Assembly (NCBI GenBank): GCA_031278715.1
Contig: JAITJW010000116.1
Coordinates: 1 to 44,885 of the forward strand
Direction of reading: 5' to 3'
DNA length: 44,885 bases
Source: Treponema sp.
Lineage (GTDB): Bacteria > Spirochaetota > Spirochaetia > Treponematales > Breznakiellaceae
Of this stretch, positions 3,559 to 43,244 are shown piece by piece. Under the pieces are notes generated by a model. It searched no databases, was not told the DNA's origin, and was given only the letters and a program-made list of their open reading frames with translations. Made by a program: the position numbers and the translations under genes. The stretch's first letter is position 1. Each line of letters starts with the position of its first letter.

Positions 3559-3561
3559 GTT

Positions 3562-3590
3562 TTGCCAGAGGGGGATGTGGTGCAGATATT
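3562..3590 (+). promoter_or_regulatory. Candidate vanH promoter
   Basis: TTGCCA (3562-3567), a 17-base spacer and GATATT (3585-3590) lie just after the terminator and before vanH. The -10 box is weak, which would fit a promoter needing activation by phosphorylated VanR. I could not identify a VanR box with confidence. Confidence 0.35.
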
Positions 3591-3617
3591 CGTCATGGAA
3601 GGGTTTGCGGTGTACGT

Positions 3618-4583: not shown

Positions 4584-4597
4584 AAGGAGAAGACAGC

Positions 4598-7732: not shown

Positions 7733-7742
7733 GTGCGGCCCG

Positions 7743-9050: not shown

Positions 9051-9086
9051 GATTACCTCCATAACAGCCCAAGGGCGGTGGGGCTT

Positions 9087-9115
9087 ATTATAATACTAAA
9101 AACACGTTCAATGAA
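9087..9115 (-). promoter_or_regulatory. Promoter of uraA-thrC
   Basis: On the minus strand there is a perfect TATAAT (9087-9092) with a weak -35 TTCATT (9110-9115) 17 bases upstream. Transcription would start near 9080, about 30 bases before the uraA start. Confidence 0.5.
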
Positions 9116-9134
9116 CCGGCGGCGCATTGCTACG

Positions 9135-9971
9135 TTAATCCTGGTTCAACCCCGCAAAAGCTTTGTCTGCCTGGGTAGTGAACCAGCCAAGGATGGCCTG
9201 GGCCCGGTTGGTAAAGGAGCTGCCGATCCGGTTCCCCAGGCCGGGAAGGGCCGCGGCCTTGGCCAGAGAAACGGCGTAGACTAAAAGACCATCCCCGGTG
9301 TCAATGACGGCCACCAGGGAACGGAGCCTGTCTTTGCCCACCGCGGAAATAATGCCTATTTTGAGGGCCGTAATGTTCCGTTGAATGAAAACAAAAAAAT
9401 CGGAACCGCTGCGGTAGCGGTACTCGTAGATGTTATCACCAAAGGTAAGGTCCCGCTGACGGGCGTAAAAGCTAAGGTCCGCGGGAAGTTCCGGGTAATA
9501 GGGATCGGCAAGTTCCTGTTTCGTATCCGGTGAATCGATCACCCGTGAATATTCGTAGAAGGTTCGCATGGCCCCGCGGCTTGCAGAGTAGTACTGGATA
9601 CCCTCCAGGCTGGAAATAGCCAGCGTACTGTTAAAGATGGCGACCCGTTCAGCGTTACTCCAGCCGGACCGGGATGCGGACGGTGGTTTTTTATAGAAGA
9701 TCAGGCTTTCGGCCATGATACCGGAGTCCAGCTCCGCCAAAGTCCCCTCCACAAGGGCCAAGGCCCCCCCATGCCGGGGACTAAGGGTGGGACTTGGGTT
9801 TCTAAGCTGGACCTGGGAAAGGGTTTTACCGGCCCGCAGCTCCGCCGCCGCCTCTGGCCCGGCCAGTTCTTCCAAGCTCAGGGCCCTGGCCGGGGTGGGG
9901 ACAAGAAACAGAAACAGGACAAGGACCGGCATTAACCGGTACGCAGAGGACAGGATCGGGGCGTATACCAT
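9135..9971 (-). CDS. Secreted hypothetical protein (possibly DUF6675)
   Basis: This 278-residue protein has an N-terminal signal sequence (hydrophobic LMPVLVLFLFLVP followed by ARA) and no lipobox Cys, so it is probably periplasmic. A conserved-looking opening, LSLEELAGPEAAAELRAGKTLS, and an internal stretch of beta strands resemble a treponeme family I remember as DUF6675. That assignment is tentative. It is the last gene of the rpmH-jag operon: its ATG (9971) overlaps the jag stop as TGATG, so it is translationally coupled. This position suggests an envelope role, but no function can be read. Confidence 0.75.
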   Translation of the reverse strand: MVYAPILSSAYRLMPVLVLFLFLVPTPARALSLEELAGPEAAAELRAGKTLSQVQLRNPSPTLSPRHGGALALVEGTLAELDSGIMAESLIFYKKPPSASRSGWSNAERVAIFNSTLAISSLEGIQYYSASRGAMRTFYEYSRVIDSPDTKQELADPYYPELPADLSFYARQRDLTFGDNIYEYRYRSGSDFFVFIQRNITALKIGIISAVGKDRLRSLVAVIDTGDGLLVYAVSLAKAAALPGLGNRIGSSFTNRAQAILGWFTTQADKAFAGLNQD

Positions 9972-10717
9972 CAACGCGCACCGCTGCGATAGTAGACCCG
10001 CACCTGCTTGTAGAGCCCTTCCCCCTCGCTCTTGGTCTCCACATCGGCAATATCGTTCAGCGTGGTGTGGATCAGGCGGCGGTCAAAGGGGTTCATCGGT
10101 TCCAGAAGGATGGAACTGCGGCTTTCCCGCACCCGGTCCGCCACCGTGTAGGCAAGCCGTACCAGGGATTCTTCCCGCCGGATACGGTAGTTTTCACTGT
10201 CCAGGATGATCCGCATATCCTCCCGGCCCTGGCGACCGGCGTAAATGTTGGCCAAAAGCTGCAGGGCATCCAGGTTTTTCCCCTTCTTCCCGATGAGGAT
10301 CGAAGAAAACTCCGACTCAATTTTGAGCCCCAGCTTCCGGTCCTCCCGGAACAAAACGCTTACCTTGGCGGCGTAACCCATCCGTTCAAGAAGCCCTTCC
10401 GTAAAGTCGATCATGGTACTTTCAAAACCGGTTTTGGGTTCCGGATCGCCGTAGACCGGCTGGCTTTGCCCCCGCCTCTGCGTTTTTTCCGCCCTGGTTT
10501 CAGGTTCCTCCCCCTCCCCCGCATCATCCACCGAAACTTTTTCGGACGTTACCGGCTTTTCCGTATGGACCTGAATTTTTACATAGCCCCGTTTGAACAG
10601 TCCCTGCCGCTGGGTTTCCAGAATTTCCACATCAAAATCGTCCTTCTCAAGCCCCAGCTCTTCCGCCGCCCGGTCAATGGCTTCCTTTTCGGTACGGCCT
10701 TCAAATTCGTATACCAT
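9971..10717 (-). CDS. jag: Jag/KhpB RNA-binding protein
   Basis: This 248-residue cytoplasmic RNA-binding protein has a Jag-N domain (about 1-52, beginning MVYEFEGRTEKEAIDRA), an acidic/Gln-rich linker (about 55-95), a KH domain with GKKGKNLDALQ near 140-150, and an R3H domain ending in LEPMNPFDRRLIHTTL. In other bacteria Jag/KhpB works with KhpA in post-transcriptional control and cell-envelope homeostasis. It follows yidC across a gap holding a palindrome (10776-10808), an arrangement conserved in many bacteria. GAGGAG precedes the ATG by about ten bases. Confidence 0.93.
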   Translation of the reverse strand: MVYEFEGRTEKEAIDRAAEELGLEKDDFDVEILETQRQGLFKRGYVKIQVHTEKPVTSEKVSVDDAGEGEEPETRAEKTQRRGQSQPVYGDPEPKTGFESTMIDFTEGLLERMGYAAKVSVLFREDRKLGLKIESEFSSILIGKKGKNLDALQLLANIYAGRQGREDMRIILDSENYRIRREESLVRLAYTVADRVRESRSSILLEPMNPFDRRLIHTTLNDIADVETKSEGEGLYKQVRVYYRSGAR

Positions 10718-10813: not shown

Positions 10814-12694
10814 TTACTTTTTCTTTTTTCTGGGGGCAATAACGGGCCCCTTGCCGTTCTTTGCCTTAAAGACCTCGGCGCCGGTTTTGGCGCTGTTGCT
10901 TGTCCCTTGTGCCAGTTCCGCCCGTTTTTTGGCAAGGTACTTGTTGATTGTCAACTGCTGCACTATGGTCAGGACATTTGACATGATCCAGTACACCAGA
11001 AGCCCGGAAGGTACGTCGTAGAGGACGAAAAAGAAAAAGATGGGCAGGGCGTACTGCATGATCTTCATCTGGGCATTGCTCTGCTGATCCGGAGTCTGGG
11101 TAGCTTTACCGTAAAGCAACTGGGAACCTACATAGATGAAGGGGAGAAGCCGGATATCGGTCCAGCCCAGAATGGGCAAACTGAAATTTTCAAAGTGGAA
11201 TACCGACTCGGGAACTGCAAGATCCGGTATCCAGCCGGGGATAAACATGGCCCCCCGCAGGTCAAAGTGGTTGTTAAAAAGGTTGTACATGGCAAAGAAA
11301 ATGGGAAACTGCAGCAACATGGGCAGGCAGCCGGAAAGGGGATTGTAGCCCTCTTTTTTGTAGAATTCCGCCATTGCCATGTTCATTTTTTGGGAGTTAT
11401 CCTTGTATTTCTCCTGAATCTCCTTGATTTTCGGGGTCAGGGCCTGCATCCGCAGCATCGATTCGGAACTTTTTTTGGTAAGCGGAAAGAGAAGCACCTT
11501 GACCAGCAGGGTTAAAAGGATAATCGCCACCCCGTAGTTATGAACAATCCGGTTAAAAAACGTGAGCAGCACCTTCAGAATCGTTTCCAGCGGCGCCAGG
11601 AGCCCCTTGGAATTGGCAACTTCTACCAGCTGCATGTCCCGCAGGAAAAAGCCGTTGGCCCCGGTGTTGTAGGGCTGCAGGTCCTCCTGGGTCTTGGGGC
11701 CCAGGTAAAACCGGTACACATCTTCATTGCGGGGGGAACTTAGCTCCTGCCGGGAAATGTAGAGCCGGGATGCGCTGGGAAGCCCCGGTTCCGGCAGGGA
11801 GGAAAAGACCAGATCGTATTGGGGCAGCAGAGGAATGGCAATAAGGGTAAAATACTTCCCTGCAATGGCGGACCATGATGCCCGGCTGTTGTTCAAAATG
11901 GCAGGACTTCCCTCGCTTACCTTTTCCTGCTTCCTCTTGCCGTTGGTAAAGCTAAAATAGTTCCGGTACTCGTAGCGCTGGTCCAGTTTTTCAAATGCCG
12001 GACCAATTTGGGGGCCAAAACCCAGGGTATAGGCCGCCGCCGTTGCGCCGGGATTTCCGGGAAAACTGAAACCCGTCATCGAATGTCCGCCATCCAGCGC
12101 TACTACCAGCTCAAACATGTACTCATTGGGTTTTAAGGTGTAACGTTTGGTCAGACGGAACTGTCCGCCCTCCGGAGACATGAAGTCCTGGGAAAAAATC
12201 ACCGTGTAGGGATCCCCGGCGGGACGCTCTACCCTGAACAGGGCGTCTAAGGGCTGGGTGTTCATGCCGCCAAAGGCCACGCTAAACCCCTGGACCCCCC
12301 GGTCCCCGCTTAACAGCATTTCCAGGGGCCCGGAATCGTCGTTGTGTTTTTTAAGCTTCCAGGAAACAAGGTCCCCCCCGGCGCTGCTGAACTCCGCGAT
12401 TACCAGATCGGTTTCAACCGAAATCCGCTGTTCCCGCAGGGTCTCCGCCTGGCTCAGGTCGGCGGTTGTAAGCTGTCCCGCGGCAGGGGGAGGGGTATCG
12501 GCGGGAACCTGCGGGGTTTCCGGAGCCCCAAGACCGGGAACCGGGGTGCCGGTAACCACGGGAACATCACCGGAAGTGCCGCCGGATGCCGGAAGAGCGG
12601 GCTGGACGGGAGGGTAAACAAGGCCCATGATGAAATAGAAGCCCAGCATCACCACAATCGAAAGTACAACAGCCAGAATAGTTCTTTTTTCCAT
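10814..12694 (-). CDS. yidC: Membrane protein insertase YidC
   Basis: This 626-residue inner-membrane insertase and chaperone for Sec-dependent and independent proteins is of the diderm type. It has an N-terminal membrane anchor (about 6-25), a Pro/Ala/Thr-rich linker (25-75), a large periplasmic beta domain (about 80-350) and the conserved C-terminal core. The core holds YGVAIILLTLLVKVLLFPLT, a cytoplasmic Lys/Glu-rich hairpin (LTPKIKEIQEKYK), CLPMLLQFPIFFAMY and two more membrane helices. The tail is basic (APRKKKK), as needed for ribosome binding. It lies 22 bases after yidD in the rpmH operon. Confidence 0.97.
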   Translation of the reverse strand: MEKRTILAVVLSIVVMLGFYFIMGLVYPPVQPALPASGGTSGDVPVVTGTPVPGLGAPETPQVPADTPPPAAGQLTTADLSQAETLREQRISVETDLVIAEFSSAGGDLVSWKLKKHNDDSGPLEMLLSGDRGVQGFSVAFGGMNTQPLDALFRVERPAGDPYTVIFSQDFMSPEGGQFRLTKRYTLKPNEYMFELVVALDGGHSMTGFSFPGNPGATAAAYTLGFGPQIGPAFEKLDQRYEYRNYFSFTNGKRKQEKVSEGSPAILNNSRASWSAIAGKYFTLIAIPLLPQYDLVFSSLPEPGLPSASRLYISRQELSSPRNEDVYRFYLGPKTQEDLQPYNTGANGFFLRDMQLVEVANSKGLLAPLETILKVLLTFFNRIVHNYGVAIILLTLLVKVLLFPLTKKSSESMLRMQALTPKIKEIQEKYKDNSQKMNMAMAEFYKKEGYNPLSGCLPMLLQFPIFFAMYNLFNNHFDLRGAMFIPGWIPDLAVPESVFHFENFSLPILGWTDIRLLPFIYVGSQLLYGKATQTPDQQSNAQMKIMQYALPIFFFFVLYDVPSGLLVYWIMSNVLTIVQQLTINKYLAKKRAELAQGTSNSAKTGAEVFKAKNGKGPVIAPRKKKK

Positions 12695-13591: not shown

Positions 13592-13877
13592 GGGGCGCTC
13601 TTTGAACGAACCGTCGGTTCACTCCTTTGCCGCGTCCATGTTCATCACCTGGGCGGGGGCTTCGGGAGAGTCGTGAGGAAGTTGCCAGATCTCTCCCTTG
13701 TGCTGCTGGCAGCATGTCAGCTTGGAATATCACCCCTTTTGTGCCATACTTGAGGCTGTTCCAAAACCGTGCGCGTTTAGCGCACCGTCAATTAGTTTTG
13801 GAACAAGCTCACTTAGTACAATATTTTCCGGGATACCCCTCTACAACCTGTTTTGGAGGATCCCAGAGGAGTGGTGT
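13592..13877. other. Divergent intergenic region between rpmH and ileS
   Basis: Together with the rpmH leader this is about 380 bases without a gene. It holds the rpmH promoter at its left edge, repeat copy 2 (13752-13810) and the ileS ribosome site (AGAGGAG, 13865-13871). No convincing ileS promoter or T-box-like element was recognised. Confidence 0.5.
13752..13810 (+). repeat. 59-bp nested palindromic repeat, copy 2
   Basis: It differs at one base from 6238-6296 and lies in the same orientation relative to the window. It has the same outer arms and the same inner TGCGC/GCGCA hairpin. It is open in the ileS frame, which makes a false N-terminal extension of ileS possible. Confidence 0.92.
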
Positions 13878-16800
13878 GTGTATAAACCAGTAGACCCAAA
13901 GGTTAATTTTCCCAAAATGGAAGAGGAGATACTTGCCTTTTGGGAACAGCATCACACGTTTGAACAATCCCTATCCCGGCGGGAAGGCGGGGAGGACTAC
14001 GTATTCTATGACGGCCCCCCCTTCGCCACAGGACTCCCCCACGTCGGCCACTTTTCCCCCAACACCATCAAAGACATCGTCCCCCGCTACCAAACCATGC
14101 GAGGCAAAAAAGTCGAACGCCGCTTCGGCTGGGACTGCCACGGCCTCCCCGTAGAAAACCTCATAGAAAAAGAACTAGGCCTTAACTCCAAAACCGACAT
14201 CGAAAGCTACGGCGTCGCCCGCTTCAACGAAGCCTGCCGCGCCTCAGTACTGCGCTACGTCAACGAATGGCGCCAAGTCGTTACCCGCCTGGGCCGCTGG
14301 GTGGACTTCGACAACGACTACAAGACCATGGACCCCGCCTACATGGAAACCATCTGGTGGGTCATGAAATCCCTCTGGAAAAAAGGCCTCCTCTACGAAG
14401 GCCACTACATCCTGCCCTACTGCCCCCGCTGCGCCACCGTCCTGTCCAACCACGAACTTAACCTGGGCGGCTACAAAGATGTCCACGACCCCGCCATCAC
14501 CGTCCGCTTCAAAGTTAAGGAGGGGGGGAGCCCCCCCCCTGCCTCCAGCCCGCTTCGCGGTCTTTCGGCCCCCCCCTCTGCGGGGGCACAGGGCCGGTCC
14601 CCGGGCGCCCCCGCAACGCCCCCACCTCTTCCCGACAGCGCCTACTTCCTGGCCTGGACCACCACCCCCTGGACCCTCCCGTCCAACCTGGCCCTTACCC
14701 TGGGGCCGGATATTGACTACGTGCTGGTGGCGGACGCGCAGTCCGGCGGCAAAGATCATTACATCCTGGCGGAAGCCCGGCTCCCCGCCTACTACAAAAA
14801 CCCCGCGGACTATCAAGTCGTCTGGAAAAAGAAGGGCGCGGATCTGGCTGGAATCGCCTACGAACCCCTGTTCCCCTACTTTGCCTGGGCCGCGGAGCAG
14901 AATGCCTTCCGTACCTACCTGGGGGATTTTGTCTCCACCGAAGACGGTACCGGCATCGTCCATACCGCGCCGGGTTTTGGCGAAGACGACGCCAGGGTCC
15001 TTAAGGGTACGGGCGTTCCCGTAATCTGCCCGGTAGACGCAGAATGTAAGTTCACCGCGGAAGTTAGCGATTACCAGGGCGTTTTTGTGAAAGACGCGGA
15101 CAAGGCCATCATGGAACGGCTTAAAGCCGAGGGCAAACTTGTCAAACGAGAGCAGGTACTCCACGCCTACCCCCACTGCTGGCGCTGTAACAGCCCCCTC
15201 ATCTACCGGGCGGTGGGTTCCTGGTTTGTCAATGTAGAGAAGATCAAACAGGACATGCTTGCCGCCAACAGCCGGATCCACTGGGTACCGGAGCATATCA
15301 AAGATGGCCGTTTCGGCAAGTGGCTGGAGGGCGCACGGGACTGGGCCATCAGCCGGAACCGCTACTGGGGAAACCCCCTGCCCATTTGGAAATGCCCGGA
15401 CTGTGGCAAGACCATCTGCGTGGGAAGCCGGGCGGAACTGGAAGAACTGTCCGGGGTATACCCGGAAGACCTCCACAAACACTTTGTAGACACGATCACC
15501 ATTCCCTGTGCCAAAGTCCCCCCGGAACAGGGAGGCGGGGCCGCCGCTTGTCAGGGAACCATGAGACGGATCCCGGAAGTATTGGACTGCTGGTTTGAAT
15601 CCGGCGCCATGCCCTACGCCCAAAACCACTACCCCTTTGAGAACAAGGAATTTTTCGACCACCATTTTCCGGCGGATTTCATCATGGAAAGCCTTGACCA
15701 GACACGGGGCTGGTTCTACACCCTTACGGTCCTGGCGGCGGCGCTCTTCAAAAGACCGGCCTTTAAGAACTGCGTAGTGGGCGGCATTGTATTGGCCGAA
15801 GACGGCAAGAAGATGAGCAAGAGCCTGCGGAACTACACGGACCCCATGGAACTGGTAAATACCTACGGCGCCGACACCCTGCGGCTTTTTCTGGTCCATT
15901 CCGCCCTGGTCAAAGCCGACGATCTCCGCTTCAGTGACGAGGGGGTCCGGGACGTACTCAAAAGCATCATCATCCCCCTGTGGAACGCCTACAGTTTTTA
16001 CGTAACCTACGCCAACATCGACGGGGTAAGCCCCGCCGCCGCGCCGGAAAACCCCTCGAACCCCCTGGACGCGTGGATCCTCTCCGAAGCGGAAAACCTG
16101 GTGGAAAAGGTAAGCGGCGCACTGGACGCCTACGACATGAGCCGGGCCGTGGATCCCATCGTGGAATTTATCGATCTCCTCAACAACTGGTACATCCGCC
16201 GCTCCCGCCGCCGCTTCTGGCGCCCCTCCGGAGAAGGTTCCGATACGGACAAACTGGAAGCCTACGGCACGCTTTACGATGTACTTAAAACACTGATCAA
16301 GGTGGCGGCCCCGTTTATGCCCTTTACGACAGAGGCCATCTGGCGGAATCTCCGGTGTTCAAAAGAGACAGAATCCGTACACCTGGCGGACTTCCCCCTT
16401 ATCCGGGAGGAGCGCCGGGACCGGGAACTGGAGTACCGCATGGCCACGGTACAGCACGCCGTGTCTATGGGCCGGTCCCTGCGCTCCCAGTACAACATCA
16501 AAGTACGTCAGCCCCTGCGCATGGTGGAACTGGTTACCCGGAATGTGGAGGAAAAAAACGTACTCCTGGAAATGGAGGACATTATCCGGGAGGAGCTGAA
16601 CGTTAAAGAAGTCGTGTTTGGGGACAACGAGGAAGACCTGGTAGAATACGAGGTAAAAGCCAACTTCCGTATCCTGGGTAAAGAACTGGGCAAAGACATG
16701 AAGGCCGTGGCAGCCAAGATCGAGACCCTCAGCCAGACCGAAATCCAGGGCCTCTTGGAAGGAGCCGCCCTGGTACTTGAGGTGGGGAACCACTCTGCGG

Positions 16801-17264
16801 ACGCTCCGCCACGAACGGTGGACGCTCCGCCACGAACGGTGGACGCTCCGCCACGAACGGTGGACGCTCCGCCACGAACGGTGGAGTCTCCACCGCGAAC
16901 GGTGGAGATCACCGCGGAAAAACTGGATATTCGGCGGATCGAGAAGGCCAATCTCCGGGTCCTCAACGAAGGGACCCTTACCGTCGGCCTGGACACGGAG
17001 ATAACCGAAGAACTTTCCAAAGAAGGGGATGTTCGGGACCTGGTGCGGGGAATTCAGAACCTCCGTAAAGAAGCAGGGCTGGAAGTTACAGACCGGATCC
17101 GCCTGTTCCTGTACGGCCCCGCCGAACTTAAGGCAGCCTGGGAGAGTTTTGCCCCCCTGGTGGCCGGGGAAACCCTGGCCCGGGAAGTTTCCTGGGCCCC
17201 GGTGGATGGACAGAAACCCCTGGAGGACAACCGCTGGTTGGTAAAAATTGAGAAACTTTCGTAA
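13878..17264 (+). CDS. ileS: Isoleucyl-tRNA synthetase, eukaryote-like (IleS2) type
   Basis: This 1128-residue class I synthetase charges tRNA-Ile. The HIGH motif is H55-V-G-H58 in ATGLPHVGHF and the KMSKS loop starts at K645. FYDGPPFATGLPH and RFGWDCHGLPVEN are of the eukaryote-like, mupirocin-tolerant class, not the usual bacterial class. The CP1 editing domain contains WTTTPWTLPSNLAL. A Pro/Ser/Gly-rich insert (about residues 214-253) interrupts CP1, and residues 975-1009 are five heptapeptides from a 21-bp tandem repeat. Start GTG 13878 (AGAGGAG upstream; MYKPVDPKVNFPKMEE) matches treponeme IleRS. The open frame back to 13698 runs through repeat DNA and is rejected. Confidence 0.95.
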   Translation: MYKPVDPKVNFPKMEEEILAFWEQHHTFEQSLSRREGGEDYVFYDGPPFATGLPHVGHFSPNTIKDIVPRYQTMRGKKVERRFGWDCHGLPVENLIEKELGLNSKTDIESYGVARFNEACRASVLRYVNEWRQVVTRLGRWVDFDNDYKTMDPAYMETIWWVMKSLWKKGLLYEGHYILPYCPRCATVLSNHELNLGGYKDVHDPAITVRFKVKEGGSPPPASSPLRGLSAPPSAGAQGRSPGAPATPPPLPDSAYFLAWTTTPWTLPSNLALTLGPDIDYVLVADAQSGGKDHYILAEARLPAYYKNPADYQVVWKKKGADLAGIAYEPLFPYFAWAAEQNAFRTYLGDFVSTEDGTGIVHTAPGFGEDDARVLKGTGVPVICPVDAECKFTAEVSDYQGVFVKDADKAIMERLKAEGKLVKREQVLHAYPHCWRCNSPLIYRAVGSWFVNVEKIKQDMLAANSRIHWVPEHIKDGRFGKWLEGARDWAISRNRYWGNPLPIWKCPDCGKTICVGSRAELEELSGVYPEDLHKHFVDTITIPCAKVPPEQGGGAAACQGTMRRIPEVLDCWFESGAMPYAQNHYPFENKEFFDHHFPADFIMESLDQTRGWFYTLTVLAAALFKRPAFKNCVVGGIVLAEDGKKMSKSLRNYTDPMELVNTYGADTLRLFLVHSALVKADDLRFSDEGVRDVLKSIIIPLWNAYSFYVTYANIDGVSPAAAPENPSNPLDAWILSEAENLVEKVSGALDAYDMSRAVDPIVEFIDLLNNWYIRRSRRRFWRPSGEGSDTDKLEAYGTLYDVLKTLIKVAAPFMPFTTEAIWRNLRCSKETESVHLADFPLIREERRDRELEYRMATVQHAVSMGRSLRSQYNIKVRQPLRMVELVTRNVEEKNVLLEMEDIIREELNVKEVVFGDNEEDLVEYEVKANFRILGKELGKDMKAVAAKIETLSQTEIQGLLEGAALVLEVGNHSADAPPRTVDAPPRTVDAPPRTVDAPPRTVESPPRTVEITAEKLDIRRIEKANLRVLNEGTLTVGLDTEITEELSKEGDVRDLVRGIQNLRKEAGLEVTDRIRLFLYGPAELKAAWESFAPLVAGETLAREVSWAPVDGQKPLEDNRWLVKIEKLS
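16800..16904 (+). repeat. In-frame 21-bp tandem repeat in ileS
   Basis: There are five direct copies of a 21-bp unit: four of the GACGCTCCGCCACGAACGGTG type (first part of the copy written) and a last variant beginning GAGTCTCC. They encode DAPPRTV repeats. The last copy holds a perfect hairpin, CTCCACCG-CGAA-CGGTGGAG. Confidence 0.93.
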
Positions 17265-19157: not shown

Positions 19158-19276
19158 GAGCTATTCCCAAAACTCGGTTAGTTTTGGGAATAGCTTTGGA
19201 AAAAGCGGCCGAATGTCCGCTTTTTCCTCTAAATCTAAGGTTGCTTTCCCAAAAACTGAAGTTTTGGGAAAGCCTC
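19158..19276 (+). repeat. 119-bp triple-hairpin repeat, copy A
   Basis: It contains three consecutive hairpins: GCTATTCCCAAAACT/AGTTTTGGGAATAGC, GGAAAAAGCGG/CCGCTTTTTCC, and GCTTTCCCAAAAACT/GTTTTGGGAAAGC. The reverse complement of 33160-33278 has the same length and is nearly identical; differences fall in the middle loop and the last arm. It sits between convergent genes and may also serve as a terminator. Confidence 0.93.
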
Positions 19277-19292
19277 TTTTATCAAAACGGGC

Positions 19293-32844: not shown

Positions 32845-33159
32845 AAACTTTCCTTATCTGTCTATACAAAATGGATGTCCATTCTCAAGACCACAAATTT
32901 GCCGGATTTTCAGGCCCGGCTTTTCGGCTGTTGAATTATGAAAGTATGGTAATATACCGTATTTCATATTTCTCCAATTCGCCATTAAAGAAAATAGGAT
33001 CGGCGCTATTTCTTGTCAATGACACAGTTACATTATTGATGCCGGTATAAAAATAACATAGGTGTTATTTATAGGTTTTCTTGATAAATTTATGATTTTA
33101 ATATACAGCCCCGGCAGATTAAAAATATAAACCACCGGTTTAACAAATTTTTTATTATC

Positions 33160-33278
33160 GAGGCTTTCCCAAGATTTCAGTTTTTGGGAAAGCAACCTTA
33201 GATTTAGAGGAAAAAGTGGACTTTTTGCCGCTTTTTCCAAAGCTATTCCCAAAACTAACCGAGTTTTGGGAATAGCTC
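33160..33278 (-). repeat. 119-bp triple-hairpin repeat, copy B
   Basis: Its reverse complement aligns without gaps to 19158-19276. The outer hairpins are conserved, the middle loop reads CAAAAAGTCCAC in place of CCGAATGTCCGC, and the last arm carries changes at two bases. The two copies are 14 kb apart in opposite orientation. Confidence 0.93.
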
Positions 33279-33391
33279 TATCGTTAGATTTTCAATCACA
33301 AAAATCTACAGGGGGAACTTCTAAAATTTCAGCTTTTAGAGTTTTTTCACTTAAAAATGGCATGTTTTGCGTCTTTGGGCATAAAATCACA

Positions 33392-33429
33392 GGGTATTTC
33401 TAAAAACCGGCCGGTTTTTAGAAATACCC
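33392..33429. repeat. Perfect 38-bp palindrome
   Basis: GGGTATTTCTAAAAACCGG is followed at once by its exact reverse complement with no spacer. The TTTCTAAAAAC core resembles the other palindromes of the window. It could be a cruciform, a terminator or a mobile-repeat end. Confidence 0.85.
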
Positions 33430-33466
33430 CGCAAGGTGAAATGAAAGCCGGCCGTAAGGCCCCATC

Positions 33467-33534: not shown

Positions 33535-36500
33535 TTATTTTGAGTATTCTAACAATCTTTGCCATGCATTGTTATACTGGTAAATACTCAGGTTGCCACC
33601 CAGAATATCATGTGAAGGATTGTAATAGCTTTTTATTTTATCCAAATCAAATCGATACGCAACAAAATTAGTAGACGGCGCAGCACGATATCTAATTACC
33701 CCTGGGTTACTAGATATATTTGCTTCACCGCCAAACGGGTCAATCACCCGGTTAGTATCAGTAAATGTCTGCACATGTGTAATACGTCCGTTTGAGTCCA
33801 GGTTGGCATTGATATCACCAGGGCGTATCGTTCCGTCGGATATTTCGGTTGTGAAATTTTTGATGATATCGTTAGCGGTTACTCTTGGTAAATCGTAGCC
33901 CATTAGCTGCAGCGCAAACAATATCGCCCCCGAACAATCTACTCCTGGCATGGATGAATTGAAAGGATTTTCGTAGCCCCATACATATCTTCCACCGGCA
34001 AGAATCAGTGCTGCCTGCGCAAGTTTGGTTCCAAATGAATTTCCCGATGGATTGTTTTGTAACTCTGACAAACGCTGCTCTGCATCAAGAACATATTGCT
34101 CATATATTTCACGATGCGCTGTTTCTGCGGGTGATAATTGATCTTTAATAAATGATAAGGCAGCTTCAGTGTTAACACGGATTTGCGTCGAGGTAAGCCG
34201 CATGACTATTGCATCTAACGGCGCGGTTCCCCAATACAATTCATCGATTGGTTTTTTATATTCGGATGTTTTTCTGATGTAAGACATGATATCAATTGAG
34301 GTATTAGAATTTGTGTCTATGCTGTAACGCTCAACCCCCGGTGAGAGTTTTGAGAAAACCGCATCGGCTATTGTGTTGCCGGCAGCACGGAGCAGGAAGT
34401 CCATATCCAATTCTTGGCCCGTGGTATTACCAGTCCATGATCGATCCCTTGGCCAGACGAAAGCTATGCCATCTGACATTTTATAGGTCATTGATGAAGC
34501 TTGCATAGCATGTTGCGCAACAAAAATTTGCCATGAAGTATATTCACCGTAAGCTCTGTTCGATGTTCCACCATATAAAATATTCAGTAGGCCGGTTTCT
34601 ATGCCCGGTGCGCCAATTGGTTTTCCGTCCTTATATATTGGATCCCCCCTTTCGTCTGTCAGCCAGCCTGAGTTATCATTCACAAGTGTACCATTATCCA
34701 TGAGTTTCCAGTAATCCCCACTCGAATCGTAGTTCTCAGATACATATTTGGCAAAGGCAGTCGTATCACCGCCCATACCAAGATACATCATCAAATCATC
34801 TATTAGTAGCCCATTTAGCGGGAGTTCGACAGTGTCATTCAGCATTTTTACTGCCATTTGGATGTGGCTTAGTACGGCTTTGAAAGTTTCGATGTCGTTA
34901 TCGCTTGTTATGTATCCGTCCCGCCAGGATTCGTGCTGCAGTGCTATTGCGTTAAGGTTGGTGTTTCCTGTATCTGCTATGGTGATAAGGCGGCCGGTAC
35001 CATCGTCCTGCCTTCTGGTTTGTGCCACGGTAGTAGTCCCCAATTCTCCCTGGTTAACTACGTTTAGTATATCACTTCCGGCCTCTATTCTCATAGAGGT
35101 ATTCTCCGCTACCCAGTCGCCGTCCAGATAATTGGTGACTAGTATATCACGATTCTCCGAGCCTTCATAGGTTCCATACGCCAGCGACATATAATCGAGG
35201 CCGTGTTTAGCGGTGTTGTAGAGGTTACCCGCCAGATCGATGCCGCCTGTTCCGAATGAAAGGGAAGTACCGTCAAGGCCGAGATTCAGTTCCATGAGGC
35301 CTACCCCTGAGAACATTTGGCCCAGGGTTCCAAGATTAGTATCGTAATTTTCACCTAGCCGGAAGCTTGCGGTTCCTATAAAGTCCAGTATACTCCCCAG
35401 GTTGGCAATGTTCAATGTAACGCCCCCCATGTCCTCGTATGCCTGTCCAAGGCGTTCACCAAAACTGCCCTTGCCATTAATCAAGCTGTCCGCTGCGTAT
35501 ACCCCATAGCGGGAAGCTTCTGTAAGTCCGGCTACCCCCAGGTTGGCAAGGCCGCTAAAGAGTTTTTCATTACCTGCTGATATGACCTTGTTTGCAATAC
35601 CGTTAAGTCCCACTCCTACCAGGGTGCTTACGGTACCGGACAGAGTCTCTGTACTATACAGGCTTTCTGTGAATGTTTTCGTATCAAAATCTCCAGTTTT
35701 GAAGTTTATGGCCTGTATAGCGTTTACTGCCATAGTAGTCGTATAAGATTTAATGGCGGCACTTCCCGCTTTTAAAATAATATCACCGCCGACTTTTTTG
35801 AATTTGTCAAAAGTTTTAACGATACTTTTGGCGACGTTGGTTTTGCCAAGGGCGCCAAAGCCAAGGGACAGGACTGATGTTGCGGCAGTGGTTGTCAGAC
35901 TCTTCATGACTTCATCGGTAGTCCGGTAACTAAAGGATAGATCAAGACCGGAGAACAATAAATCGTCAACCATGTTTATAAGGGAAGCTGCAAAGGGAGT
36001 TATGACCCCGCTTAATGCTATTGACGTAATGTCCAGTGCAAAGTCAAGCGTATCCCTGATGGTGGGAGCGGTGAAACCCGGAGTGTATGCCTGGGCCCAG
36101 AATTTTTGATCATAGACGGCCTTACCCATTTCGGAATACCCTACGGAACTGACCATTCCGTTCCACCAAAAGTCCAGCAGGATCTTACCCATTTCTCCGG
36201 CGCCGGGATCTTCGGCGTCTTCCAGGGGGCTGTGGAGGTAACTCACTTCATCTTTCAATAGCGGTCCATAGCCGATATGGGCGCCCAATGCCCCGTCCCG
36301 TACCGTAACCAGGGCATTATCGTCGTTCCCGTTGCTGCGAAGAACCTGGTGTTCTACTGTTTTGTTGTTTTCAACGCGCCCAAAGATCATCTCTCCCCAT
36401 TTGTCCAGATTCAACCTGGCTGTTTCCGCCATGTACATGATCGTATCCGCATCCAGGCCGTTTAAGGTCGCGGCGTTTAGATCCACTCCCGATACCGGAC

Positions 36501-39500
36501 CGGATTCCGGGACGTAGAATTCATAGCGGTGTACCGTTTGGGTTACCGTATAGTTTCCAAAAAGAGCCGAATCGACGGTTGCCTTTCGTCTGATCTGTCC
36601 GTCAATCTGGTAACCATAGGATTGAACCAGCTGTTCTTCCCATGCAAGCATGGTCCTGTTTTCCCTGTCGAGCCGGCTGTATAACTGACTAATTGCCTCT
36701 TCAATAAGCTGTTGGGCCTGCTGGGCGGCAAGTTTTGCCGCGGTTTTCTGCATATCGTTGTCCATTTCACCGATTAGTTTTGCTGCCTGGGCAAGGTTTC
36801 CGGCGGTGCTTGTCCGCTTTGCCGCCGTCAGGACCTTCTGCGCCCCCAGGTCTCCGCGGCCGGCCAGGTTATCCGCTCTGGCAAGGAGTTCCCCTAAAAT
36901 TGAATCTTCTAAAAGCATATCGGTATAGGATAAAGGATCGATAGTTTCACGGTTCATCCGTCCAACCGAGACTTTTGCCAGGCTTTGCTCGATTATCTGA
37001 TCCGCATTATCTCCTGCGTATTCAAATAACCCTGAATTTCCCACATTTACTGCGTAAAGGTACTGATCCTCAACCCAGATCTGTTTTTCATTCACAAACT
37101 CAAGATAATTAAGGTCCCATGCCGCAGTTTTTGCCTGGTACTCGTCATTGAAATTTTTTCGCCAGGTGTTGTAGCCTTCGTTCATCCTTGAGCGGGCTTT
37201 GTTCCATTCGGAAAGCCCCGCCTGCCTAATCTGGTCTACCTGTTCCAGCCACGCGCTGTATTGGTTGAGAAAATCCTCAAAGATGATTCCCCATTCCTGT
37301 TCTTTTACGGAAAGCCGGAGAGCCGTATCTGTGTCCAGGGCGGCAAGGCCCGCCTCCCGCAGCAGCAGTATTTCATGCTCCGTGTATGCTTCTGTTGGCC
37401 GGCTGTACCGTGTCAGGGAACCGAACAGTTCCCCCTCAAGATTTATAATATTCTGCCCGTGATTTGTACTGTTCCAGCTGTTGTCTCCAAGGGCACGATC
37501 CAGTAATATCCGCATATCTTCCCGCAGGTCTTCCGTGTCAAATGACAGCTCGCTAATAAGCCTTTCGTATTCCGCGGATGATTCCCGGCGTTCCGCAATA
37601 TCCAGACTGGGATCGCCGGCCCGCAGGGCCAGGGCCCTTAATTCCGCCTGCCGGTCCTGGGGAATAGACCGCGCGACATTCATCATTTCGCCGTAAAGTT
37701 CAAGAGCGCCCTGTTGTTCCTCTTTGAGCCGTTCAATTTCCCCGTTCATAAGGGCCTGCTGATTTTTTGACCTCGCCTCCAGTGCTGCGTTAAGAATACT
37801 AATAGCTCCGGTTACTGTAGAGCCTGCTCCGGCGTTAGTTTCTTCATACAGAGTTTTACTGTACACCGCTATAGCGTCATTAAATGTAACGGTATTGTTA
37901 TTACCTCCGAAAATGAACAGGTTTGTCAGACCTGTGCGGAAATCGTCATAGCTTAAGGTATTTGTTTTTCCCTCTCCTGCCGGGCCCTGTGCCGAACCAT
38001 AGTAGAACAGGTTCAGCTTTTCCCGTTCAGCCTTAAGCCGGACTGCCGCTTCCATCCATGTACCATATTCGTCACGGAACTGGCTATTTTGACCGTTTAC
38101 AATATCCGTGTACCGGTTCCCAAGGTTTTTCACATCAGTCCACAGACTGTTGATTTGTTTGCGGGCAAACTCGGCAGTCCCGGCCAGTGCGTAAAATGTA
38201 GCGGCAAGCGCGAATGATTGAATGGAAATGGCCCAGAGGGATGGGATGAAGATGGCCCCTATCGCGGCCGCTGTCCCCGCGGCGGTGTATCCAATTGCTA
38301 TTCCCGTGTAGGTTCTGACATCAACAACGTATCTTTCGTGAGTTTTCCCGATAGATTCAGATAATTTCTGCAGTGCCCGTGATTTAAGCAAATCCTCTTC
38401 ACGGGAGTCGGCTCCGGTTACAAGATTTCTGTCGCGGTAAAGCAGGTAATAGGCGATATCTTCTTCCCCGCCTTTTTGCCGTATAACCCGGTTATACGCT
38501 TCCTGCAGCGCCGTTTTTCTGGCCTCGCTATACCTGGTTTTTACATCAATTCCATGGAACGATGTGTTCAGGGGAATGTCCCCCAGCGTGTAATCTCCGT
38601 TACGGCGGGGGTCCCCCCCGTTAATAAACCATGTGTTTCCCTCAGCGGAATCTTCCTGACTGCAGTATTTTATGTAAAGGGATGCCAGCATTACATCGTT
38701 AAGGTAATCGATCCCCCGGTTCATTGTTTTTTTTAGCCATTCCCCGGCCTCCCACTCGGCCAAAGTCATGCTTGTCCCACTGCCGGCCTTTTCTATGGAT
38801 ACTGCCGTATCATCGCCAAAGTATTTCTGAAAGACTTCTCCGTCAATTTCACTGTCCGGTTTTCGTACCGCCTCGTGGGAAACCGTACCGGCCTGTTGAA
38901 GATTTTCCAGCGTATAAGTCAATACCGGTTTATAGCCCCCGTTTCCGTCATCAACAAGGTTTACCAGTTCATACTGGCCTGGGGAAACGGATGTAAATGT
39001 TCCTACCAGCCTGCTTCGCGCCGCCTCTTCAGCAAGTTCCGCTTCCCGGACAATAGTTTCCAGTCTGACAATCGACTGAGTGGTCTGGTAGGCGGTTGCC
39101 TGGGCAAGATAGTAGGCGCGGCGGCTCTCCCTGTAGGATTCCAGCGCCTGGCCGTAATTGGCATCAGTCCGGGCCGGAACACCATTTGATATTTCATTCA
39201 GTACTTCTACGGCAATCAGTGCCCGTTCCCTGGCGTACTGTACCTGGACCAGTTTTTCCTGGGGTGTTACGTAATATTCATCATAATTGCTTCCGAAGTC
39301 TTTCAGGTAAACACTTTCCGCCCAATCGTATATCTCCTGTTTTTTGCGTAATTGAAGCCGGGCTTCTGTCATTGCCCTGTAATATTCATCCGCCAAGTCT
39401 ACTACAGCGTTGTAGTCTATACAGCTCTGATCAATGGCCCGGATTGCCGCATCGTACTCATTGTTTGCATAGTCATTGTATTTCTTTTGTACCGCCGTTA

Positions 39501-42500
39501 AAATTTCCTCTTTTTCGGCTTTTATGGCTGCAAGTGTTTCAGCTCCTTCGTTTATGTACCGAAGTTTTTCCAATTCGTCATGTATCATCAGGCAGAGCCA
39601 GGAGTCCGTGTTTATTCCGTTCTGGAATTCCTGCCAGCTATTTTCCAGGGCCGCGCGGGCGGATTCCAGCATAAGCGTACCGGCTGCTTCCCGGTATTGG
39701 GTTTGATCCCACTCATCCATTGTGTCAAACCATATTCCAATCCGGTATATTTTTTGTTCCAGTCCTTCCAGATATGTCTTTTTAGCATCGGAGGCAAACA
39801 GTGGTTCTATTTCCATTAATGATTTACTGTCAATTCCGCTGGAGCTTATCCGCGCACGGTGGGCAGCCAGGCTTGTCAGCCATGAAGACCGGTTTTCCTC
39901 TTTTTCTCCAACGTAGTACTGGGTGTAAACTAACGCATCGGTTCTGCGTACAAGTTCTTCTGCAGATGTGGTTCTTAAATTTTCAATCAATGTGTAAAGG
40001 GCCAGGGTGTCTCCCAATTCGACACAGGAAAGAAACCATTCCCGTTCCTCATCCGCAAGAGCCGCAAATTCGGCACTACCCGTTATTTCTTCCAGGCCTG
40101 CCGTGTCATAGATACCGTAGCGCCACGAGTCATAGGCAGTGTAAGAGGTCAGGGCCTCCTGGTATTCTTTTTCACGGGATTCCCTGTCCGCCAGGCTTTC
40201 AAGACCGTTTTCGTAATCGCGGACTGCCGCATATTCCAGAAACGACATGATAAAATATTCAAGGGCCTCTTGCCCCGATTCGTTAAGGCCCTTTCCCGCG
40301 TCTCTCAGTTCTGCCGCGTATTCCAGGGTCTTTTTCTCTCCCGCGGTGTTCAGTCCTGCTTTCAGGGCCGCTATAAGTTCTGCTACCCGTTGTCCGGCTT
40401 CGCGATTTTTCTGGTTCTGCAGCCCGGCATCGTACTGTCCGTAGCGTTCCCGGATTAAATTGGCCCGTTCCGCTCCTTCGCTGTCAGGATCCGGCAGTGT
40501 TCCTGTTTTAAGGTATTCGATGGTCTCTTTCCGCAGCAGTACTTCTTCATCGTAATACAACGCCGCTTCTTCCCATACCCAGCGCATCAGGACCAGCAAG
40601 TCTTCCCGTTCCACCGGGTCCCCGGTCTCCCGGTAAGCCATGTCAAGTTCAATAAGAAACTCTTTACCGTTCCATGTTCGTTCTTCCCCCTCCGTATCCG
40701 TTCCCCAGGTACTTCTTAACAGAAGTTCCGCCGGATAAAGTCCCGCCGCGGCCCGCAGATCTTCTTCCTGACCGGACCGGGAAAGGAACCGCGCATCTTC
40801 CGCCTTTGTCTCAAGTCCGGTAATCCCGTCTTGCCCGGGACCGGAGCCTGTTTCCAGGGAATTGATCAGGGAACTTATTTCCAAAGAATGTAGAATATCC
40901 ATATACTCATGGGAAAGCTGGTAATAAGTATGTATAGTATCTTCAAGTGATAGTTCTTTTCCCTCTGCGTTCTGTATTTTTCCTTTCCAGAAATCCAGAA
41001 TCATTCTTGCCAGTTCCGTCAGTTCCGCATAGACAAGGGTCGGGTTCATTTCTTTCATGGCGGAAATTATATTAAGATAATCACGCTGGGCATCTTCCAC
41101 CTCTTTCTTAAACCCCGCCAAAACCGCCTGTGCTTTCTCAAAATCTTCCCGGGTTCTTTCCAGGGCCGTACTTTTTTGACTGATAAGTTCCGTGATACCC
41201 TGATAGTCTTTTACTGATTCTTCGTAGGCGGCCTTGGCCTTTTCCAGTTCTTCCCGGGTCTTTGCCGCGTCTTCAATAGTGGAGCTTGTCTCCTGTGCAT
41301 ACTGGTGCAGGGCGCCGGCTACCTCAAGTTCCTTATCCCAGTAATTCAACAGGGCCTCAGCCTTTAACAGTTCCGCGGTAAGCTCGCCGCGGTAATCTCC
41401 GGAGTTTCCCGCGGCGCTGCCCGCCAGTTCGTAGAGCCGCCTGGCGCTGTCATCCGCGAATTCCCGGTACTTCATAGCCAGAGAAAGCCAGCCCGTGTCC
41501 GTGTTGATAAGGGAGCCGGCGCTTTCTAAAAGCTCATCAATTGATGACAGTATCTCTCTTTCCTGCAGTACCAGACAGGCTTCTACCCAAACTTCAATTT
41601 GGGCCTGCAGTATCTGTGCGTTATTCTTGTTTGGATTTGTCAGATCATCAATATCAATAGCGGTAAGCAGGTTTTTGAATACTTCATAGTCCAGCCCGGC
41701 AAATCGTTCTGCCAGGGACGCTTCTTTTTCGATAGCGTTTTTCATATACGTGTAAACCATAAGGTACTTGTCGTCCCAGAGATTGAACCAGCTTTCAATT
41801 CCCTGGTTGACCAGGTCCATCATCTGACGACTGCGGATATAGATTGCCTCCTGGGATTCCAGCATCGTTTCCTTTATGCTACGGCTTTCCGCCGCCGCCG
41901 CAAGAAATTCTGTCCGGGCATCCTCAAGTTCCGCCGCCAGGCGTGACTGGTTTTCCTGCCATTTGGCAAAACCCTCGTCAATTTTCAGCAGTATCGCTGC
42001 TTCCCACTGTTTTTGCCGTTCGGTCAGTTCAAGGTAGGCCTGATTCCATGATTCTTCTCCGGCAAGGTAAGCGTCTTCCGCATCATGTTCCCATTCAGAA
42101 CGGGCCGCCAAAAAGCCAAGTTCCGCCTCTTCCCAGCGGGCCAGGGCCTCTTCAAAGACAGCCCGGAACTGGTTAAGCCAATCTTCAGCACTAAGCTCTA
42201 TGTCCCCCTGTGCTTCCGCGGAGATCATTGTGTCCAGTTGGTTAAACAGTTCCCTTGCCCGTTCCTCCGTGGCCTCTTCCGCTTCTCTGGCCAGCTCCCT
42301 GGCAATAACTGAGGCGGCCTCATTAGCGGCAAGTTTTTTCATACTTCCCTGGTCGTAGAGCAGTTCCGTCATAAAACGGTTCCCCTCTGCCAGGGCAATA
42401 CGGTTGTATTCCCGCCGAACCTCGATCCGCCGGATTTCTGCTGTTTCGAGGATCAGGCTTTCCCGTTCTTTATCGCTTAATCCCAGGTCCTGGAAGCGAC

Positions 42501-43047
42501 TTTCCAGTTCGATGTAAACCGCACCCTGTTGTTCCTCCCAGCCGTTCAGGTAGCGCTCTACAATTTCGGCGGCCACCTGTTCCCAGGCAGCCCGGACTTC
42601 CCCTGCGTCTGCCAGATTTACTATCTGCCCGGAATTTTCATAGTTCCACAGTTCCGCCGCTTCCTGCAGCGCCTTTTCCAGCCCGGAACCTTCAAAACCA
42701 GCCCGTTCACTGTAGACCCGCTCACTTGCCCAGCGTACATAGGCAGTCTCCATTTCCTTGCGGTAACTCGTTTCGGCCCATTCCCGTTCTTTCCGCCATG
42801 TCTCACTGTCCTGCTCCTGCAGCCATACAGCCCCGCTTTCCCATTCGTACATCGCCGCTTCCAGTCCTGATTGGGCAAGCTGTTCCCAGTTTTGGACTTT
42901 TCGCTCTGCCGCAGCTTTGTCCAGGTAGTGTTCCAGCCGCGCCATACCCTGCCGCAGATCCGTCCGCAGTTCTATTGCCGGAAGCATTGCCGCCAACTGA
43001 CATTGTACCAGTACCAGAGCAATAATCTTGCTTAGCTTCGAATTCAT
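33535..43047 (-). CDS. Giant 3170-residue exported protein with C-terminal NlpC/P60-like peptidase
   Basis: MNSKLSKIIALVLVQCQLAAMLPA forms a signal peptide. Residues about 30-1500 are Glu/Ala/Trp-rich helical coiled coil with irregular W-containing repeats (SWNQAYLEL, KQWEAAILL). A hydrophobic pair of helices lies near 1570-1620, another coiled coil near 1620-2150, and Gly/Ala-rich hydrophobic segments near 2330-2480. The C-terminal 160 residues look like NlpC/P60: C3038 in PGVDCSGAI, H3091 in GRITHVQTF and D3103 as possible third residue. Such domains cut peptidoglycan peptides. ATG 43047 has AGGAGGGG upstream; the frame to 43074 is not used. It may belong with the very long Leptospira family TIGR04388, which I cannot verify. 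No partner gene adjoins it. Confidence 0.85.
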   Translation of the reverse strand: MNSKLSKIIALVLVQCQLAAMLPAIELRTDLRQGMARLEHYLDKAAAERKVQNWEQLAQSGLEAAMYEWESGAVWLQEQDSETWRKEREWAETSYRKEMETAYVRWASERVYSERAGFEGSGLEKALQEAAELWNYENSGQIVNLADAGEVRAAWEQVAAEIVERYLNGWEEQQGAVYIELESRFQDLGLSDKERESLILETAEIRRIEVRREYNRIALAEGNRFMTELLYDQGSMKKLAANEAASVIARELAREAEEATEERARELFNQLDTMISAEAQGDIELSAEDWLNQFRAVFEEALARWEEAELGFLAARSEWEHDAEDAYLAGEESWNQAYLELTERQKQWEAAILLKIDEGFAKWQENQSRLAAELEDARTEFLAAAAESRSIKETMLESQEAIYIRSRQMMDLVNQGIESWFNLWDDKYLMVYTYMKNAIEKEASLAERFAGLDYEVFKNLLTAIDIDDLTNPNKNNAQILQAQIEVWVEACLVLQEREILSSIDELLESAGSLINTDTGWLSLAMKYREFADDSARRLYELAGSAAGNSGDYRGELTAELLKAEALLNYWDKELEVAGALHQYAQETSSTIEDAAKTREELEKAKAAYEESVKDYQGITELISQKSTALERTREDFEKAQAVLAGFKKEVEDAQRDYLNIISAMKEMNPTLVYAELTELARMILDFWKGKIQNAEGKELSLEDTIHTYYQLSHEYMDILHSLEISSLINSLETGSGPGQDGITGLETKAEDARFLSRSGQEEDLRAAAGLYPAELLLRSTWGTDTEGEERTWNGKEFLIELDMAYRETGDPVEREDLLVLMRWVWEEAALYYDEEVLLRKETIEYLKTGTLPDPDSEGAERANLIRERYGQYDAGLQNQKNREAGQRVAELIAALKAGLNTAGEKKTLEYAAELRDAGKGLNESGQEALEYFIMSFLEYAAVRDYENGLESLADRESREKEYQEALTSYTAYDSWRYGIYDTAGLEEITGSAEFAALADEEREWFLSCVELGDTLALYTLIENLRTTSAEELVRRTDALVYTQYYVGEKEENRSSWLTSLAAHRARISSSGIDSKSLMEIEPLFASDAKKTYLEGLEQKIYRIGIWFDTMDEWDQTQYREAAGTLMLESARAALENSWQEFQNGINTDSWLCLMIHDELEKLRYINEGAETLAAIKAEKEEILTAVQKKYNDYANNEYDAAIRAIDQSCIDYNAVVDLADEYYRAMTEARLQLRKKQEIYDWAESVYLKDFGSNYDEYYVTPQEKLVQVQYARERALIAVEVLNEISNGVPARTDANYGQALESYRESRRAYYLAQATAYQTTQSIVRLETIVREAELAEEAARSRLVGTFTSVSPGQYELVNLVDDGNGGYKPVLTYTLENLQQAGTVSHEAVRKPDSEIDGEVFQKYFGDDTAVSIEKAGSGTSMTLAEWEAGEWLKKTMNRGIDYLNDVMLASLYIKYCSQEDSAEGNTWFINGGDPRRNGDYTLGDIPLNTSFHGIDVKTRYSEARKTALQEAYNRVIRQKGGEEDIAYYLLYRDRNLVTGADSREEDLLKSRALQKLSESIGKTHERYVVDVRTYTGIAIGYTAAGTAAAIGAIFIPSLWAISIQSFALAATFYALAGTAEFARKQINSLWTDVKNLGNRYTDIVNGQNSQFRDEYGTWMEAAVRLKAEREKLNLFYYGSAQGPAGEGKTNTLSYDDFRTGLTNLFIFGGNNNTVTFNDAIAVYSKTLYEETNAGAGSTVTGAISILNAALEARSKNQQALMNGEIERLKEEQQGALELYGEMMNVARSIPQDRQAELRALALRAGDPSLDIAERRESSAEYERLISELSFDTEDLREDMRILLDRALGDNSWNSTNHGQNIINLEGELFGSLTRYSRPTEAYTEHEILLLREAGLAALDTDTALRLSVKEQEWGIIFEDFLNQYSAWLEQVDQIRQAGLSEWNKARSRMNEGYNTWRKNFNDEYQAKTAAWDLNYLEFVNEKQIWVEDQYLYAVNVGNSGLFEYAGDNADQIIEQSLAKVSVGRMNRETIDPLSYTDMLLEDSILGELLARADNLAGRGDLGAQKVLTAAKRTSTAGNLAQAAKLIGEMDNDMQKTAAKLAAQQAQQLIEEAISQLYSRLDRENRTMLAWEEQLVQSYGYQIDGQIRRKATVDSALFGNYTVTQTVHRYEFYVPESGPVSGVDLNAATLNGLDADTIMYMAETARLNLDKWGEMIFGRVENNKTVEHQVLRSNGNDDNALVTVRDGALGAHIGYGPLLKDEVSYLHSPLEDAEDPGAGEMGKILLDFWWNGMVSSVGYSEMGKAVYDQKFWAQAYTPGFTAPTIRDTLDFALDITSIALSGVITPFAASLINMVDDLLFSGLDLSFSYRTTDEVMKSLTTTAATSVLSLGFGALGKTNVAKSIVKTFDKFKKVGGDIILKAGSAAIKSYTTTMAVNAIQAINFKTGDFDTKTFTESLYSTETLSGTVSTLVGVGLNGIANKVISAGNEKLFSGLANLGVAGLTEASRYGVYAADSLINGKGSFGERLGQAYEDMGGVTLNIANLGSILDFIGTASFRLGENYDTNLGTLGQMFSGVGLMELNLGLDGTSLSFGTGGIDLAGNLYNTAKHGLDYMSLAYGTYEGSENRDILVTNYLDGDWVAENTSMRIEAGSDILNVVNQGELGTTTVAQTRRQDDGTGRLITIADTGNTNLNAIALQHESWRDGYITSDNDIETFKAVLSHIQMAVKMLNDTVELPLNGLLIDDLMMYLGMGGDTTAFAKYVSENYDSSGDYWKLMDNGTLVNDNSGWLTDERGDPIYKDGKPIGAPGIETGLLNILYGGTSNRAYGEYTSWQIFVAQHAMQASSMTYKMSDGIAFVWPRDRSWTGNTTGQELDMDFLLRAAGNTIADAVFSKLSPGVERYSIDTNSNTSIDIMSYIRKTSEYKKPIDELYWGTAPLDAIVMRLTSTQIRVNTEAALSFIKDQLSPAETAHREIYEQYVLDAEQRLSELQNNPSGNSFGTKLAQAALILAGGRYVWGYENPFNSSMPGVDCSGAILFALQLMGYDLPRVTANDIIKNFTTEISDGTIRPGDINANLDSNGRITHVQTFTDTNRVIDPFGGEANISSNPGVIRYRAAPSTNFVAYRFDLDKIKSYYNPSHDILGGNLSIYQYNNAWQRLLEYSK

Positions 43048-43244
43048 AGCCCCTCCTGCGCCGTGCGGCGCCATTAGATGATTGCCGTTGCCCTAACGGG
43101 CCCGGTTTTTTCTCACCTATATAGAGGGGCGGATATGCGTTTTTGAATCGATTTTTAGGATTTTTTTTGTTTTTTTTGGCGAATTAACGCTGATTGTTAC
43201 TTCATGGCAGATTCATGGGTGATGTACCCGTCGGCTTCTGGCAG

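Follow-up and report, generated by a model that had tools for sequence, protein, structure and literature searches.

Introduction

Classical polymorphic toxins of the Sec-dependent class join an exported, conserved N-terminal part to a variable C-terminal enzyme, and they are commonly accompanied by orphan cassettes and a downstream immunity-like gene. Tox-NLPC/P60 and Tox-LD-peptidase are among the tips listed by Zhang et al. 2012 (PMC3482391), where Tox-NLPC/P60 is recorded for Bacteroidetes and deltaproteobacteria and not for spirochaetes (PMC3482391). In the TANFOR toxins of Bacteroidetes, which are large proteins, an N-terminal scaffold is combined with C-terminal toxin domains and downstream immunity (Jana et al. 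2020, PMC7073777). The present analysis concerns a giant gene in a stretch of 44,885 nucleotides from Treponema sp. (the window), which is an entire contig, JAITJW010000116.1, of a 2.74-Mb spirochaete metagenome-assembled genome (MAG) that is 84% complete. An earlier note, drawn from the letters of the window, had proposed that this gene encodes an envelope-spanning fiber, an adhesin, or a polymorphic-toxin-like device, with a peptidase presented at the tip. Spirochaetes inhabit dense gut communities; in the literature searched, which covers few subscription journals, we found no description of a contact weapon of their own and none of the scaffold family to which the giant belongs, and the family is apparently undescribed.

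The giant works like a polymorphic toxin and, by comparative criteria, is one. Very probably, the window gene represents one allele within a polymorphic-toxin family of spirochaetes, in which a Sec-exported scaffold would deliver a replaceable NlpC/P60 tip to the wall of a neighbor. With the classical toxins the family shares the exported conserved N-terminal part and the variable C-terminal enzyme as well as, in the relatives and not in the window, orphan cassettes and a downstream immunity-like gene. It differs from them in its scaffold, which has no entry in Pfam, NCBIfam, PHROGs, or PADLOC (in a search with the whole giant protein, the tip alone was matched), and in its tips, which are almost all cell-wall enzymes, whereas the usual mix is nuclease-rich. 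Its likeness to TANFOR is that of a lineage-specific class of large scaffold-plus-tip proteins; TANFOR, however, is linked to the type IX secretion system (T9SS) and has a deoxyribonuclease tip, and the window protein has no TANFOR match. RHS_repeat was found neither in the window protein nor in its genome. No Pfam match to the hemagglutinin-type N-terminal domain or repeats of CdiA was found in the window protein, and no adjacent transporter or CdiB was seen among the open reading frames (ORFs) read. Two giants of the family match TIGR04388 ('Lepto_longest') weakly, below its cut-off (1.8e-7 and 1.4e-5, over ~160 positions). This Leptospira family was rejected as the parent family, since the window protein is unmatched and the profile of the conserved domain ahead of the tip has no match to the TIGR04388 proteins fetched. 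By the tests made, the giant is not an Rhs, CdiA, TANFOR, or TIGR04388 protein.

Results

The giant gene and its NlpC/P60 tip

33535..43047, minus strand: whole giant gene, 3,170 residues from an ATG supported by a ribosome-binding site; frame open to 43074
33538..34569, minus strand: variable tip, residues 2836-3179; a same-genus relative that is ~80% identical has an unrelated tip
33727..33993, minus strand: NlpC/P60 domain, residues 3028-3116, with catalytic C3047, H3100, and probably D3112

The longest open frame spans 33535-43074 on the minus strand (3,179 residues), and residues are numbered here from 43074; subtraction of 9 gives the numbering of the earlier note. The true start is likely to be at 43047, giving 3,170 residues, because a GGAGG Shine-Dalgarno sequence lies in front of this ATG and because the same start, with the N-terminus MNSKLSK, is retained in the same-genus relative L103 (L numbers are labels of the relatives' loci in the comparison set). 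The 9.5-kb gene placed by the earlier note at 33535-43047 is upheld, with its strand now given as minus and a ribosome-binding site at 43047. With 3,179 codons and a match to a curated family, it is a genuine gene and not a chance ORF.

The curated family is PF00877 (NLPC_P60), matched above its curated cut-off with E values of 2.8e-5 for the whole protein and 1.4e-6 for the tip alone; phmmer also aligned the domain with the solved NlpC/P60 enzymes 7cfl (2.8e-5) and 8er5 (2.9e-5). C3047 and H3100 are invariant in an alignment of 36 homologues. The AlphaFold model has a predicted local distance difference test score (pLDDT) above 90 across most of the domain, and the initial ~130 tip residues were modeled without confidence. 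In a Foldseek search with the NlpC/P60 model, the autolysins 7cfl (target template modeling score 0.78) and 4hpe ranked at the top, 6b8c was also matched, and the type VI secretion system (T6SS) effector Tae3 stood lower. Profile matches and the predicted structure together confirm a papain-like NlpC/P60 fold with a Cys-His-polar triad. The earlier note had singled out a terminal Cys-His domain (C3038 and H3091); these residues, C3047 and H3100 here, both lie inside PF00877, and the assignment has held for the structure of the C-terminus as well as for the conservation of both residues. The probable third catalytic residue, D3112, would be D3103 in that numbering. Such a tip would be expected to cleave the stem peptides of a target cell's peptidoglycan.

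Exchange and retention of tips among related giants

L103 is ~80% identical to the window giant up to residue ~2,780 and unrelated beyond, where it carries a papain-like SGCNFM motif (a contig end removes its last residues); the lineage of the window has therefore itself undergone a tip exchange. A CHAP-like tip is carried by L104, which is the next relative. Giants L035 and L036 are 94% identical across 2,654 columns and 25% identical over their last 170 residues, and the pairs L048/L058 (89% identical) and L049/L056 (82%) each bear tips from different families. Comparison of C-termini among homologues, with its 80-94% identical bodies and unrelated tips, thus strongly supports the polymorphic-toxin-like device of the earlier note.

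Displaced tips are preserved as well. At 94% DNA identity, L048 contains the L058 tip and the gene that follows it, placed after a different tip of its own, and the end of the L056 tip with its following gene is present in L049 at 93.7% DNA identity. By these alignments, an earlier tip has been pushed downstream in L048 and L049 and retained as a displaced orphan. Short ORFs of 440-1,340 residues, which begin at varied points inside the domain ahead of the tip and are often arrayed (four consecutive in L046; others in L032, L043, L052, and L053), are orphan cassettes.

The tips that accompany these bodies are diverse. In a Pfam scan of 57 + 31 C-termini, Peptidase_M23 was found in 15 + 8, Peptidase_M15_4 in 1 + 1, CHAP in one, and NLPC_P60 only in the tip of the window. 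The 93 complete tips cluster into many unrelated groups: ~33 M23-like, ~21 LD-transpeptidase-like (a His...Ser-x-Gly-Cys pattern), ~29 papain-like (Cys...His) including that of the window, 3 VanY-like, and ~7 unassigned, with the LD-transpeptidase-like and papain-like labels taken from motifs and conserved Cys and His residues. By Pfam (M23, NlpC/P60, VanY, CHAP) or by these motifs, most tips look like peptidoglycan hydrolases, and no clear nuclease was seen among them.

A different explanation would make the giant a housekeeping envelope scaffold whose hydrolase remodels the cell's own wall during division or flagellar insertion. That the identifiable tips are almost all wall enzymes, that autolysins are common among NlpC/P60 and M23 enzymes (7cfl is one), and that the window copy has no adjacent immunity gene would all suit such a role, but unrelated catalytic families swap on bodies that are 80-94% identical, orphan tips are retained downstream, and the gene is patchy, as detailed below. 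Because tips swap and orphans are retained, both this explanation, which we regard as improbable, and that of a secreted lysin, taken up below, are weakened.

Distribution of the family and its pre-tip domain

34576..36306, minus strand: conserved pre-tip domain, residues 2257-2833, common to giants and orphan cassettes
34702..34731, minus strand: junction motif YDSSGDYWKL, residues 2782-2791, found in alignments immediately ahead of the end of homology
34864..34935, minus strand: HE-S-W-R ... E ... H motif, residues 2714-2737, metallopeptidase-like, from the pre-tip copies

Relatives of the window protein are giants of ~2,600-3,800 residues, mostly with a signal peptide, and are widespread in Spirochaetota. 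In a phylum-wide sample of 393 genomes, the last 1,179 residues were matched in 51 (a few solely via the NlpC domain), and the body was matched in 75 of 150 genomes of the window's own family; at the search sensitivity used, the gene is patchy at both levels. In its own MAG it is single-copy, and further copies of the scaffold were sought and none found. A 5,013-residue relative from a more distant spirochaete family (L153, 1764-16805, minus strand) matches the N-terminal and middle parts of the scaffold body, with a profile E value of ~1e-24 in compositionally biased sequence.

The pre-tip profile (residues 2257-2833) retrieved 61 ORFs in the first locus set and 102 once a second set was added. 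In giants and short ORFs alike, homology ends 200-400 residues, mostly ~300, before the stop codon. An HExxR (77) or HExxH (8) motif is present in 85 of the 102 pre-tip copies, as a rule with a conserved Glu and His after it, and an 18-sequence alignment of the motif has invariant H, E, G, and H. This site resembles that of a metallopeptidase, as would fit a role in freeing the tip, a function proposed for peptidases adjoining the tip in other polymorphic toxins (PMC3482391). Because the model of the domain failed (AlphaFold from four sequences gave a pLDDT of 35, and the model was discarded), this role is a lead only. Against the PDB, the pre-tip profile gave chance-level matches only, and the snake-venom metalloproteinase among them (E = 0.067) is not counted as evidence.

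Genes behind the tips and the missing partner in the window

33389..33432, minus strand: long terminator-like stem-loop directly 3' of the giant gene, a 20-pair stem followed by a T-rich tail
33149..33278, no strand assigned: one of ~40 occurrences in the MAG of a ~120-bp dispersed repeat; in relatives, this region usually holds a putative immunity gene

A signal-peptide-like gene lies behind 56 of 88 testable tips, compared with 67 of 375 other ORFs of the same loci (Fisher p = 1.6e-16, a value that ignores relatedness among loci). Following genes were defined by at least 100 codons, a hydrophobic N-terminus, and a start ~-110 to +200 bp from the stop of the tip. Their products carry SH3_3, NADase_transloc, LRR, ankyrin, or RCC1 domains, or no domain; at loci L032-L070, SH3_3 occurs in 12 of 46 putative immunity proteins and NADase_transloc F5/8-type domains in 8 of 46. 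We infer that these genes encode putative periplasmic immunity proteins, and exported partners fit a target located outside the cytoplasm.

The same arrangement recurs on unrelated carriers of the tip. The nearest relatives of the window's NlpC tip sit on an Rhs-repeat protein from another spirochaete genome (L066, ORF 4349-10369; tip 35% identical) and a gp19 tail-tube protein (L065, ORF 9642-10598; 38%). Each is followed by a signal-peptide gene, and the two genes are mutually homologous (34% identical, E = 5e-25). The carriers differ: an RHS/YD shell in L066 and a contractile-system tube protein in L065, in contrast to the helical body of the window protein, which also has no partner gene. 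Beside the Rhs toxin of L066, an orphan Rhs end with an Amidase_2 tip was seen at 10996-11889.

Several observations weigh against reading the window gene as a toxin allele. Downstream of it come the stem-loop, ~690 bp without a gene, and a chemoreceptor gene, and no candidate immunity gene was found within these 690 bp. Neither a secretion partner nor a transporter was seen among the neighboring ORFs read; no orphan cassette was found in the window's genome; and the known partner family of NlpC tips was searched for in this 84%-complete genome and not found. Several relatives with papain-like tips also have no following gene. The LD-transpeptidase-like and papain-like tip profiles had no matches in the PDB, and these classes were assigned by motif alone. 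The statement in the earlier note that no immunity gene lies next to the giant is accurate for the window and does not extend to the family, in which a signal-peptide gene usually stands behind the tip; its remark on the absence of an adjacent secretion partner was borne out. The partner expected in the window may have been lost, may lie elsewhere or within the 16% of the genome that was not recovered, or may be absent through misassembly near the repeat at 33149-33278.

That no dedicated secretion partner is seen and that the window has no immunity gene would also suit a secreted lytic or adhesive exoprotein, serving predation or nutrient release with neither contact delivery nor kin immunity. 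Most tips nonetheless have an exported gene immediately after them that is replaced jointly with the tip, which points to self-protection within a kin-discriminating system, and we consider an exoprotein of this kind very unlikely.

Proposed mechanism

On the polymorphic-toxin reading, the layout is a signal peptide, a helix-rich body of ~2,200 residues, a conserved pre-tip domain of ~580 residues, and a replaceable tip of ~340 residues. The giant would be exported by Sec, after which the scaffold would be displayed or released. Having crossed the outer membrane, and possibly after processing by the HExxR/HExxH pre-tip domain, the presumably toxic tip would be delivered by contact to the wall of a neighboring cell, probably kin or near-kin. 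In relatives, the producer would be protected by a periplasmic partner, an exported or lipoprotein-like product. Tip exchange would proceed by recombination where the pre-tip domain ends, the gene behind the tip traveling along.

A more far-reaching proposal, tentative and in our view somewhat doubtful as a whole, is that these proteins form a separate spirochaete class of polymorphic toxins, with a giant Sec-exported helical scaffold, wall-cutting tips neutralized in the periplasm, self-release by the HExxR/HExxH site, and a route independent of T6SS, type V secretion, T9SS, and Rhs. If the toxin reading is true, spirochaetes gain a contact weapon, kin discrimination among treponemes becomes testable, and many new hydrolase-inhibitor pairs are to be expected. 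It also leaves to be explained by what route a protein of ~350 kDa, exported by Sec, would get to another cell when no known secretion machine serves it.

Signal peptide and body

42973..43047, minus strand: Sec signal peptide, residues 10-34, a hydrophobic segment with an LPA-like cleavage site
41725..43047, minus strand: conserved N-terminal region, residues 10-450, with BLAST matches (query 10-445) in distant spirochaete giants
37075..42972, minus strand: long helix-rich, Trp-dotted body, residues ~35-2000, from composition in 200-residue blocks
38182..38304, minus strand: hydrophobic Gly/Ala-rich segment, residues 1591-1631, Kyte-Doolittle windows above 1.5
35986..36042, minus strand: hydrophobic segment, residues 2345-2363, within the pre-tip domain, from hydropathy

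The signal peptide seen in the earlier note agrees with the hydrophobic region at residues 13-31, the LPA-like site, and the similar N-termini of most complete relatives, and its hydrophobic glycine-rich segments were recovered at residues 1591-1631 and 2345-2363. Of the ~2000-residue Trp-dotted helix that it described, the scatter of Trp (46 within the first 2,000 residues) and a helix-like composition, low in Pro and high in Glu and Ala, were found; a strict coiled coil was not, since a search of the body gave no steady heptad signal. The term "coiled coil" thus describes the apparent composition of the body only.

Genomic neighborhood

The neighbors read are ordinary chromosomal genes, such as those for the chemoreceptor, an SMC protein, and isoleucyl-tRNA synthetase. 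A phage tail tape-measure protein or tail-associated lysin left by a prophage, which the length and helical character of the giant, its hydrophobic stretches, and its wall hydrolase at the end might suggest, was rejected as hardly conceivable: the giant has a signal peptide and no PHROG match, the neighborhood holds chromosomal housekeeping genes and no tail genes, and the relatives' giants likewise have no conserved tail genes alongside.

The dispersed repeat at 33149-33278 belongs to a MITE-like (miniature inverted-repeat transposable element) or REP-like (repetitive extragenic palindromic) class. It is ~120-130 bp long with a terminal palindrome (AGCTATTCCCAAAACT...), and several of its ~40 copies in the MAG lie at contig ends; a second copy in the window, at 19158-19287, is 92% identical. 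At 1624-6342 on the plus strand lies a complete operon of the glycopeptide-resistance type (vanR, vanS, vanH, D-Ala-D-Lac ligase, vanX), in which VanR, VanS, the ligase, and VanX exceed NCBIfam cut-offs and the ligase is closest to VanI. A 71-bp repeat with the ends GTTCCAAAAC...GTTTTGGAAC occurs at 6236-6306 and 13750-13820 (93% identical). The first copy and the 3' end of vanX overlap, apparently lengthening the VanX C-terminus, and the second copy lies within the 5' part of the longest isoleucyl-tRNA synthetase frame. The same synthetase gene contains, at 16778-16903 on the plus strand, a 21-bp tandem repeat encoding DAPPRTV repeats.
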